NCBI RefSeq assembly: GCF_001623565.1
Contig: NZ_CP015196.1
Span: forward strand, 2,067,501-2,131,500
Source of the DNA: Streptococcus marmotae
GTDB lineage: Bacteria > Bacillota > Bacilli > Lactobacillales > Streptococcaceae
Reading direction: 5' to 3'
Length of the DNA: 64,000 nucleotides
Below are positions 33,980-62,769 of this stretch, piece by piece. Within the stretch, counting starts at the first letter, position 1. Each line of letters opens with the position of its first letter. The position numbers and the translations under genes were made by a program. The notes beneath the pieces are model-generated. The model did no database searches and was not told where the DNA came from. It worked only from the letters and a program-made list of their open reading frames with translations.

Positions 33980-35299
33980 ATGCTTCAGCTTATCTTTTAT
34001 CAGTTTCAATTCTCTAAAAAGCAATGGTCTAGTATGATTCCACTCTTTCTCGTCTCCGGTATCATTGTCGGGCTATCACTAAATGGTATTTTTACTATTA
34101 GGGAGATTCTTCATGCTTCACAGGTCAATGATCCAATACCTATTTTTGTCTTTCCGATTGTCTTCGGAGGAATAACGCTTTTTTTCACCATTTCGACAGC
34201 CATTCAGCTACTCATTGACACTTTCAAAAAAGACTACGAATTATGGGATCTATTAGGAGCAAATCGTACACAAATTTCTCTCCTTGTTGGAGGACAGTTG
34301 GCACTTATTGCAAGCTTAGCTAGCCTTCTTGGCTACATTATCTCCATACCTAGTACCCATCATTATTATTATTTTCTTCAACAATTCTTTGGTAAAGACT
34401 GGATTCCAGACATCCCTCTTCATTTCAATTTACTAGCAGGTGCTTCTTCTATCGCAATCCTTACTAGCCTTGCTTTTCTGAGTGGGCTATTTCATACACG
34501 AAAGATCCTCAAAGCTCAAGATAAAAAACAGAACAAAGTGACACGCTTCTTCAGAGTGATTCCTAAAATAACAATAGGACTTATCTGCCTATCTTTAGAA
34601 GCCTATCTTATCAATCAAATTTTTCAACCAAATACAATGATAAACAAATCACTCTTTCTATTTTATCTTCTGTTCACCAATCTTTTTCTCATTAATCTCC
34701 TGTCACCATATCTCCAAGTATTTCTGATACGAGCCTATTCGGCTATGTTTTTTAGGAAACATTACGCTCCTATTATTGCAAGATGGACAATTCTTCATCG
34801 GACACTCTACTTAAAATCACTGAATACATCCATCCTATCAGCGATTACCTTAATTGCAGGTTTCCAATTACTATCTCAAAATATCTTTTATCTATTTCAA
34901 GAAAATGCTGATTTAGAACTGAAAATCTCCTTTTTCATCTACCTCGGTGCCCCACTTCTCATTATTCTTAGTAATATTATTTCGATTACCCTATTATCTA
35001 TTGAAAAAGAGAAGGAAAATAAATCCCAATTGGATACATTAGGTGTTTCCTTGTATCACTTATGTATCATTAAATTATGGGAAGCTTTCATCCATTGTCT
35101 TACTATTTTCTTTGTCGCATTTTGTATCAATAGTCTATTCCTTCTTCTCATTAGAAGTATCTTAATAGAAAATCATCAAAATCTCGCAAATCGTTCCGGC
35201 TTATTCCTTCCAGGACTAATGATTTGCTGTATCTTATTCCTTATGCTTTTCCTAACGAATATTTCGGGGAATCCATTTACTAAGGGGAATGACGCTTAA
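33980..35299 (+). CDS. FtsX-like ABC transporter permease
   Basis: 439 residues with about ten hydrophobic segments in two halves, including the pattern LWDLLGANRTQISLLV (cytoplasmic coupling loop of FtsX/BceB-type permeases). I chose the ATG at 33980, which has AGGAGGAG before it; the upstream ATG at 33965 overlaps the previous stop and lacks a site. With the ATPase it may export a peptide or confer antimicrobial-peptide resistance, inferred from family. Confidence 0.82.
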   Translation: MLQLIFYQFQFSKKQWSSMIPLFLVSGIIVGLSLNGIFTIREILHASQVNDPIPIFVFPIVFGGITLFFTISTAIQLLIDTFKKDYELWDLLGANRTQISLLVGGQLALIASLASLLGYIISIPSTHHYYYFLQQFFGKDWIPDIPLHFNLLAGASSIAILTSLAFLSGLFHTRKILKAQDKKQNKVTRFFRVIPKITIGLICLSLEAYLINQIFQPNTMINKSLFLFYLLFTNLFLINLLSPYLQVFLIRAYSAMFFRKHYAPIIARWTILHRTLYLKSLNTSILSAITLIAGFQLLSQNIFYLFQENADLELKISFFIYLGAPLLIILSNIISITLLSIEKEKENKSQLDTLGVSLYHLCIIKLWEAFIHCLTIFFVAFCINSLFLLLIRSILIENHQNLANRSGLFLPGLMICCILFLMLFLTNISGNPFTKGNDA

Positions 35300-61194: not shown

Positions 61195-61599
61195 TTATAC
61201 CTGCAATTCCTCGCGAATCGCTTTTTGTAATAACTGGCTAAAATTAACCTTGTTTTCTTTTCCGACTTCCACAAGCCAGCTTGGTAGTGTGACAGTCTTA
61301 TTGACAATCTTAGATCGTTCACGCTCACGGACAAGCTCCGTATCCACTGAAATCGCCTGAATCACATCTTCGTCACTTGCCAAATGACTTGCAAGAGCCT
61401 TGAATGATGAAGTTTTAGGAAATTCTTTTCCTTCGTCTTCAAACATAATAGTATAGATTTCAAGTACTTCCCGAGCATTGAAAATGGCCTCGTTCAAGCT
61501 ATCAGCTTCACTAAATGCTCCAGGGAAATCAGGGAAAGAAATGCTATATCCTCCGTTTTCTTTATCTGCTTCAAATAATGCTAAATAAGTGTATTTCAT
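61195..61599 (-). CDS. hicB: HicB antitoxin
   Basis: 134 residues. The partly degenerate RNase H-like N-terminal domain of HicB (GGYSISFPDFPGAFSEADSLNEAI, residues 16-39) is followed by a C-terminal DNA-binding domain of ribbon-helix-helix type (NKTVTLPSWLVEVGKENKVNFSQLLQKAI). HicB binds and blocks HicA and represses the operon. It follows hicA by 60 bp; no clear Shine-Dalgarno lies before its ATG, and the spacer holds the small hairpin ATCCCTT-CAA-AAGGGAT. Confidence 0.93.
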   Translation of the reverse strand: MKYTYLALFEADKENGGYSISFPDFPGAFSEADSLNEAIFNAREVLEIYTIMFEDEGKEFPKTSSFKALASHLASDEDVIQAISVDTELVRERERSKIVNKTVTLPSWLVEVGKENKVNFSQLLQKAIREELQV

Positions 61600-61659
61600 A
61601 ATATTAGATTAAGCCAATGATCAGAGTAATCCCTTTTGAAGGGATGAGGAGGAGTTTTC

Positions 61660-61845
61660 TCACTCCCCATATAAAACTTTAAGAATGTTGTTCAGTGTGC
61701 CTGACCTGTAATCTTTTTCCTTTGGCTTCGGTATCGTCACTGTCCGTCCGTCTGGATGTTTCCAAACTTCATGGGACCCTTTGCCAAAATTGGTCTTGCT
61801 GAAACCTTGCTTCCTAGCAATTTTCTTAAGCTCTCGCTCTGTCAC
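61660..61845 (-). CDS. hicA: HicA toxin (mRNA interferase)
   Basis: 61 residues with the double-stranded-RNA-binding-like HicA fold. The catalytic His is in GKGSHEVWKHPDG (about residue 25), followed by RTVTIPKPKEKDYRSGTLNNILK. HicA cleaves mRNA when HicB is lost. It is first in the operon, as in other hicAB loci. AAAGGAGAT lies before the ATG. Confidence 0.93.
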   Translation of the reverse strand: MTERELKKIARKQGFSKTNFGKGSHEVWKHPDGRTVTIPKPKEKDYRSGTLNNILKVLYGE

Positions 61846-61969: not shown

Positions 61970-61996
61970 AAAAAAACACCAGCGCAAGGCTGGTGT
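61970..61996 (-). terminator. terminator of the ToxN-like gene
   Basis: ACACCAGC and GCTGGTGT make an 8-bp stem with a 5-nt loop, then T7 on the minus strand, 49 bp past the stop. Confidence 0.88.
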
Positions 61997-62044: not shown

Positions 62045-62560
62045 TCAATTTAAATAATCTTTTTCGGTAATTCGTTTCAATCTATCTGTATAATTGACAA
62101 ACGTAGAAAATTTGAATCGCCGTGGATCGTTTAATTTATTCAAATCGCTTTGGCTGACAGCTTTATTGTAATCTATAATAGCTTTTATCAATTTATTAAT
62201 AATCAGACGATCATTATCTACTATTTTGTAATAGTCGGCAGCTTCTCTCAGTTGGAAATTTGTATTCAGTAAATATTTATAATCCTCCACAATAAGTGTT
62301 TTACCAATATCTAATCCCTCTATATAACCTGGCTTCTTGGAGTCCCGCAACTTGTATTTCAATTGATACTTCTTAGGAATATTACTTCGCAGAGGAATGG
62401 CAAAAATCAATCCCTGTATCTTAACTAAAACAGTGGCGAAACCACGACCTTTATTGTATATTTGCTTTGTCTTATGGTCATAATCCATTGCTTGTTTTAA
62501 ATTATAATCGCGACACATTTTTAAATCAATTTGAGTTAATTTTAATCTCTTGCTTTTCAT
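62045..62560 (-). CDS. ToxN/TenpN-like endoribonuclease, type III toxin
   Basis: 171 residues. The core GRGFATVLVKIQGLIFAIPL followed by RSNI, then GLDIGKTLIVEDYKYL, and the C-terminal helical part with RFKFSTFVNYTDRL, match my memory of type III toxins of the TenpIN/ToxN/AbiQ superfamily. These cleave RNA and are held inactive by a repeat RNA encoded just upstream. Here that place holds a promoter, a structured RNA region and a terminator. Known systems of this kind abort phage infection. The start follows TAGGTAAG. Assignment is from motif memory, not from a search. Confidence 0.7.
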   Translation of the reverse strand: MKSKRLKLTQIDLKMCRDYNLKQAMDYDHKTKQIYNKGRGFATVLVKIQGLIFAIPLRSNIPKKYQLKYKLRDSKKPGYIEGLDIGKTLIVEDYKYLLNTNFQLREAADYYKIVDNDRLIINKLIKAIIDYNKAVSQSDLNKLNDPRRFKFSTFVNYTDRLKRITEKDYLN

Positions 62561-62573
62561 TTCTTACCTACAA

Positions 62574-62734
62574 AATAAAAAAATCCTACCAACTGGGTAT
62601 TGGTAGGACGCATTGCCAACGGGATACTTCTGTTAACGAGCGCGTCCCTCCGCCCCCTCATTGCCATAAGGCTGGAGTTTAACGACAATCGAGGTCGGAA
62701 CATAGAAAGGAGGTGCTTTTCACCGTTCTTGTTC
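62574..62734 (-). ncRNA. candidate type III antitoxin RNA with two 47-48-nt units
   Basis: Between a consensus promoter and a rho-independent terminator (TCCTACCAA / TTGGTAGGA, 62584-62608, then T7) lies RNA with two diverged units. Each has TCGTTAA, then about 13 nt, then TGGCAATG (minus-strand cores 62679-62685/62659-62666 and 62632-62638/62611-62618). Each core is enclosed by a different but complementary stem: CCTC/GAGG extended by ATTG/CAAT in unit 1, GGACGC/GCGTCC in unit 2. Changed bases with kept pairing suggest selection on structure. The toxin gene starts 14 bp beyond. Confidence 0.6.
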
Positions 62735-62740
62735 AGTAAT

Positions 62741-62769
62741 ATTATTTCAAAATCATCATGATTTGTCAA
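62741..62769 (-). promoter_or_regulatory. promoter of the candidate antitoxin RNA
   Basis: TTGACA (62764-62769), 17-bp spacer and AATAAT (62741-62746) on the minus strand, after the endolysin terminator, so the module has its own promoter and can be expressed in the lysogen. Confidence 0.7.

Follow-up and report, generated by a model that had tools for sequence, protein, structure and literature searches.

The minus-strand locus at positions 62045..62769 of a 64 000-nucleotide (nt) stretch of the Streptococcus marmotae genome (contig NZ_CP015196.1, forward-strand positions 2,067,501 to 2,131,500; hereafter the window) pairs a short putative RNA with a gene for a 171-amino-acid (aa) protein, and raises the question of whether it is a type III toxin–antitoxin (TA) module and, if so, how many antitoxin units its RNA carries. 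An earlier note, made from the sequence alone, had proposed such a module with two covarying RNA units. The class was very probably recognised rightly; the two-unit description was wrong, one unit being present between two boxes. L and G numbers below are handles for loci and genomes.

A single RNA unit between two boxes

The unit, boxes included, spans 55 nt (62611..62665, minus strand, as for all window features given here) and is predicted to form an H-type pseudoknot. Its edges are two copies of GGCAATG, counted in the sequence, one at the 5′ edge (62659..62665), a proposed processing site, and one at the 3′ edge (62611..62617). A covariance model of the conserved unit (12 loci) gave a single copy in the window (98.7 bits, E = 1.4e-21), besides which just one match, with E = 5, lies there at 35116; on 17 other sources (distant loci) the model reached at best E = 0.24 (L047). 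No direct repeats of at least 18 nt were found in the window RNA by a repeat finder. The shared words reported earlier do occur twice in the RNA, though 46 nt (TCGTTAA) and 48 nt (GGCAATG) apart rather than the 47–48 nt given; the supposed upstream unit has only the box in common with the real one, and once this 7-nt box was set aside 139 of 500 shuffles matched the unit at least as well as the upstream element did (18 of 500 with the box included). In relatives such as L018 and L021 the upstream element lacks TCGTTAA. What had been described as one of only two, unusually dissimilar units, each with its own stem, is a series of predicted hairpins (62734–62698, 62697–62683 and 62672–62663) ending at the first box of a single unit.

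Relatives of the toxin at 57–93% identity are found in Streptococcus phages, prophages, one satellite phage, chromosomes and an Aerococcaceae lineage. The RNA core lies exactly once within 400 nt of the toxin gene, with boxes 46–48 nt apart, at 45 of 45 loci of this clade, a count that includes the window's own locus and adds up 13 viral contigs, 6 of 11 Streptococcus phage records, 11 genome contigs and 15 whole-genome loci, several being one contig present in two collections. The single-unit form extends across the whole clade as sampled here, including the Aerococcaceae toxin (57–60% identical), and the unit is nearly invariant among relatives while the leader in front of it is variable.

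In the best H-type knot of the window unit, stem S1 pairs GGGCG (62651..62655) with CGCUC (62638–62642, CGCTC in the DNA) and never varies, stem S2 pairs GGGA (62645..62648) with UCCC (62621–62624, TCCC in the DNA), and loops L1, L2 and L3 measure 2, 2 and 13 nt, lengths similar to those in the units of relatives; the knot was recovered alike in four of these (L021, L018, L050 and L077). The covariation claimed earlier holds within the single unit for one of nine proposed pseudoknot pairs, one of the four of S2, which is changed on both sides (GC in nine and AU in two of 11 distinct rows); S2 reads GAGA/TCTC in L021, L022, L029 and L030. The pseudoknot script was run on 19 units and gave a result for all. 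Among 14 distant TenpN-like units, several of them closely interrelated, none of 200 shuffles scored as well in L044, L045, L047, L053 and L092, one to three did in L058, L093, L094 and L097, ten in L095, and 19, 26, 28 and 28 in L059, L019, L054 and L098 respectively, the last having longer loops. Pair changes and fold scores give some support, short of proof, to the predicted H-type pseudoknot. The unit is also readable as an open frame (GNEGAE.RARQQKY; protein P0023 and open reading frames (ORFs) in L107, L115 and L119), and the N-terminal extension of database protein P0023 is translated RNA, probably a wrong start call.

A TenpN-related toxin candidate

The 171-aa protein (62045..62560) is a type III toxin candidate by profile matches and predicted fold. 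It matches the TenpN profile NF047358 at 85.8 bits (E = 3.1e-24), and the top five structural matches of its predicted structure are ToxN (three times), AbiQ and CptN, well above the MazF rows. In 32 rows that include distant TenpN relatives, residues R39, P56, R58, S59, D84 and K87 vary little or not at all, and the window protein keeps all six. The comparison with type III toxins that the earlier note had called for reveals resemblance both by sequence profile and by predicted fold, and homologues that regularly lack the upstream RNA, which would have told against the module, were not encountered at the 45 clade loci; toxin similarity and constant association with the RNA core both argue for the type III class. 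A Pfam search at E up to 1 gave the protein no Abi_2 match, and an AbiF/AbiD (Abi_2) identity was dropped for this reason. PADLOC had no match for the locus, and the relatives in phage records are filed as hypothetical or left unannotated, their PHROG being without function. A second TenpN relative is encoded in the same genome (G000:C1:1549219-1549641; L061, L124; 65.4 bits); compared with L053 its toxin apparently lacks the N-terminal part, its RNA has two dissimilar units by eye, and in L061/L124, L053 and L058 the S2 strand of the last unit seemingly doubles as terminator.

Layout of the locus

Along the minus strand the elements follow the order that the earlier note had read: a promoter-like site TTGACA-17-AATAAT (62741..62769; a consensus match only, at 11 of 12 positions), a putative antitoxin RNA of about 160 nt (62577..62734, with ends placed from promoter and terminator), an intrinsic-terminator-like hairpin (62583..62609, from a terminator scan and the alignment of relatives), the 171-aa ORF and a second terminator-like hairpin 3′ of the toxin (61976..61996, terminator scan). 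This layout is repeated in the aligned relatives, and in five of the seven consensus pairs of the intergenic terminator hairpin both partners are changed in at least one relative. The simple scans for promoters and terminators gave 13 and 4 further sites in the 3-kb stretch around the locus, compared with 6.7 and 2.2 in shuffles, and the folding energy of the RNA (62579–62734) was lower than that of shuffles (z-score −2.29; 2 of 200 as low).

Streptococcus phage Javan290, whose host is S. marmotae HTS5, encodes the identical protein, unannotated, in the interval from the lysin gene to the record end; a cargo position between lysin and prophage end is shared by phages of S. pyogenes, S. agalactiae and S. 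suis. A HicA/HicB type II TA pair (window 61195–61845, minus strand) lies immediately downstream of the module; the Javan290 record terminates with the HicB-like gene.

The leader of the RNA

A hairpin near the 5′ end (62698..62734 in the window, from single-sequence folds read by eye) was predicted in 13 of 13 leaders folded singly, with stem sequences that differ by eye; its covariation was judged from these folds and not from pair counts because the leader aligns unsafely. It is followed by a second hairpin, CGAC...GTCG (62683..62697), which is missing in L018, L021 and L050, and by a short predicted hairpin, GCC-TTAT-GGC, touching the first box (62663..62672); a hairpin ending at that box was counted by eye in 10 of the 13 folds.

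Within the first hairpin, 13 nt (62703..62715) are identical to the 3′ tail of 16S ribosomal RNA (rRNA), including the anti-Shine–Dalgarno sequence. The genome itself has seven ACCTCCTTTCTA sites, four of which are 16S tails; one of them, in L126, was confirmed with Rfam, where a bacterial 16S rRNA match ends at the site. The identity extends over 11–13 nt in nine of 13 leaders (window included) and over 4–7 nt in L004, L018, L020 and L050. RNAalifold pairs the leader word CCUCCUU, lost in L004, L018 and L050, with GAGGGGG of the unit. The 16S-tail-like stretch might base-pair with the unit's G-rich strand or act as a mimic of the anti-Shine–Dalgarno sequence, and a leader acting as antisense to the unit is a candidate reading.

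Spread and unit number beyond the clade

For the distant loci, upstream DNA was read at 21 entries, of which L044 and L046 denote one locus and L096 stops at a contig edge. The repeat finder, applied to 13 regions (11 distant loci, the window and L021), returned two or three tandem units, 86–100% alike and spaced 45–53 nt, in eight (L045, L046, L047, L048, L054, L059, L092 and L019) and none in five (window, L021, L050, L053 and L093). Reading by eye gives two or three dissimilar units for L053, L058, L061, L097 and L098, and for L093–L095 once more a lone unit flanked by boxes and preceded by hairpins; reduction to one unit, on this reading, may have occurred more than once. L093–L098, from other genomes of the phylum Bacillota, form a separate TenpN-like lineage with one to three units whose S2 stems seem by eye to have been swapped (GAACGA/UCGUUC, GGAUGA/UCAUCC and others).

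NF047358 matched in 15 of 395 genomes of the order (3 over the cut-off) and 8 of 398 of the phylum (1 over it). A search for the toxin clade itself hit 2 of 398 phylum genomes, one of them only distantly (E = 1.2e-10). Of 231 genomes of the order, RNA model R1 detected the RNA in two, that of the window and one with toxin locus L050, under stricter filters that lose weak matches and with an output that does not show the overlap with the 17 core-carrying Streptococcus genomes described below. The RNA matched no Rfam family at E up to 5, in a library that possibly leaves out the abiF motif; three weak matches lie outside the RNA, far below gathering scores, and a known family was rejected. Spread on plasmids (only two weak matches in 72 556 records) and in non-Streptococcus phages (10 matches at E = 7, mostly tail-sheath genes) was likewise discarded. 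In genome G139 a stretch adjoining a full locus (L125, 5464–6901) looks chromosomal rather than phage-derived; its 214-aa and 126-aa ORFs match nothing in Pfam, a third ORF is weakly SecB-like, and together they may be a further defence or TA operon.

Toxin-less copies of the RNA

When 284 genomes of the genus were scanned for the core, allowing up to three mismatches, 22 places in 17 genomes were found, and none with the reversed core as control; 14 adjoin a toxin and eight do not. All eight retain the toxin ATG and about eight codons before unrelated DNA, and their upstream flanks are 98–99% alike over the nearest 1 kb, so they represent one site and probably share one loss event. In the two genomes for which more sequence was fetched, this site lies behind a PBECR4-domain gene downstream of genes that, from reading the proteins, we take to be cinA-recA-dinF-lytA. 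The RNA is identical over 150 columns in all eight copies, an excess that is small beside the invariant columns upstream (386 of 402, 391 of 403 and 127 of 132). When one toxin-less copy was compared with its nearest toxin-bearing group, the 55-nt unit was identical in six of seven comparisons (four distinct RNAs), while the leader differed at several positions; in the seventh, L029, the second box is changed and the toxin has a stop. A full locus is present elsewhere in five of the eight genomes, one with a toxin stop (G158), and absent in three. The toxin is truncated in 2 of the 15 core-bearing stretches from viral contigs: in L063 and L068 the RNA is intact and the toxin gene is cut after about 23 residues. 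Retention of the toxin-less RNA for neutralisation in trans is plausible; it may also be in slow neutral decay.

Proposed working and alternatives

We consider it likely that the locus is a type III, TenpN-related module with a one-unit RNA antitoxin, working as follows by analogy with ToxIN, CptIN and TenpIN, from which processing, binding, RNase activity and defence are taken. The single promoter would make abundant antitoxin RNA, most transcripts ending at the terminator and few reading through into the toxin gene. Cleavage of the precursor at both GGCAATG boxes by the toxin, a putative MazF/Kid-like endoribonuclease akin to ToxN and CptN, would free one 48-nt H-type pseudoknot, which would in turn bind and block the toxin. 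Were transcription to stop on phage infection or prophage loss, the RNA would decay and the released toxin, now toxic to the cell, would cut cellular RNA, leading to abortive infection or addiction.

Several points weigh against this proposal. Tandem repeats of the antitoxin, described as a key feature of type III systems, are absent from the window RNA, and the protein misses the curated NF047358 cut-off of 90 bits by 4 bits; because both curated score and repeats were examined and neither qualifies the locus, we do not file it as a member of TenpIN, like which it is built in the respects that can be examined. Foldseek gave weak E-values, 0.013 at best and none under 0.001, with a MazF chain next at 0.033. 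The pseudoknot script returns the best H-type knot and can return nothing else, with unit ends and loop limits set by eye, and the window score is unexceptional, 18 of 200 shuffles being as good (19, 8, 8 and 17 in L021, L018, L050 and L077 respectively). An alternative unknotted fold of the unit reaches −13.8 kcal/mol, and S1, being invariant, gains no support from pair counting. For AbiQ, no viable clones were obtained with an antitoxin (antiQ) of 0.8 repeat (PMC5086642).

Could the RNA still be an array of two dissimilar pseudoknot units, both functional? The paired boxes and TCGTTAA words at similar spacing would fit, related toxins (L053, L058, L097 and L098) have dissimilar multiple units by eye, and with the box included the upstream element beats most shuffles in other leaders too (3 of 500 as good in L004, 10 of 500 in L067). 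However, the covariance search gives one unit, once the box is removed 92 to 499 of 500 shuffles, across 13 leaders, match the unit as well as the upstream element does, and in L018, L021 and L050 the stretch is an unrelated hairpin region, which makes such an array highly improbable. A purely cis-acting role of the RNA, as a leader or attenuator tuning the toxin by premature termination instead of acting in trans, would agree with the RNA's place directly upstream, the terminator before the toxin and the lack of any protein antitoxin partner seen for the 171-aa ORF; we nevertheless regard it as unlikely, as conservation peaks in the unit and not in the terminator, distant homologues have tandem arrays, and the RNA persists with an unchanged unit at the eight toxin-less places.

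A decaying system, in which the array shrank as the toxin became weak or inactive, might be read from the internal toxin stops in 3 of 28 loci (L016, L024 and L029), the two truncated viral copies and the loss of the toxin at eight places. Against this, 25 of the 28 loci have no internal stop, the window protein keeps all six conserved residues and the single-unit form runs through the whole clade as sampled, Aerococcaceae included; we give decay very little credence, and retain the one-unit TenpN-related module.

Relation to known systems

TenpIN of the Photorhabdus luminescens type, which aborts phages (PMC5377504), shares with the locus a homologous toxin, the order of antitoxin RNA, terminator and toxin, and a similar unit (48 nt box to box here, 50 nt stated for TenpI; PMC12373285), but TenpI is repeated 2.1 times (PMC12373285) whereas one unit with two boxes is present here. 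CptIN (Eubacterium rectale) differs in that CptI is naturally encoded as repeats and CptN is 14% identical to the predicted toxin in the structural alignment; a single CptI repeat is, however, fully antitoxic, a precedent for the sufficiency of one unit (PMC4627078). ToxIN and AbiQ have units of 34–36 nt repeated 2.8–5.5 times (PMC5086642). AbiF-RCd22 and AvcID likewise set a phage-linked RNA antitoxin against a protein toxin (PMC12373285, PMC10511110), but their toxins, an Abi_2/AbiD/F protein and a deoxycytidylate deaminase, are unrelated. A published type III survey demanded a tandem repeat before the toxin (PMC5086642), and a one-unit system would therefore escape it. We found no description of a natural one-unit ToxN/TenpN/CptN antitoxin locus in the literature consulted, which does not take in most subscription papers, bioRxiv preprints or the full text of the founding survey gks231.

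Implications

The module is very probably of a known phage-defence or addiction kind, departing from the well-studied systems in its single RNA unit as opposed to two or more. As a minimal system it allows one to ask why antitoxins are repeated at all, and its one-unit precursor raises the question of how the toxin is still held in check. It also suggests a function for the cargo gene between lysin and prophage end in phages of S. pyogenes, S. agalactiae and S. suis. Only tentatively, as a possibility that we rate below even, do we suggest that a lone unit, excised by the toxin, can suffice as a type III antitoxin, and that the toxin-less RNA, in some streptococci downstream of cinA-recA-dinF-lytA, might be a free-standing host immunity gene neutralising incoming or resident TenpN-bearing elements in trans (anti-addiction), an RNA counterpart of solitary protein antitoxins. 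The toxin-less copies let this role of RNA antitoxins as host anti-addiction genes be tested.
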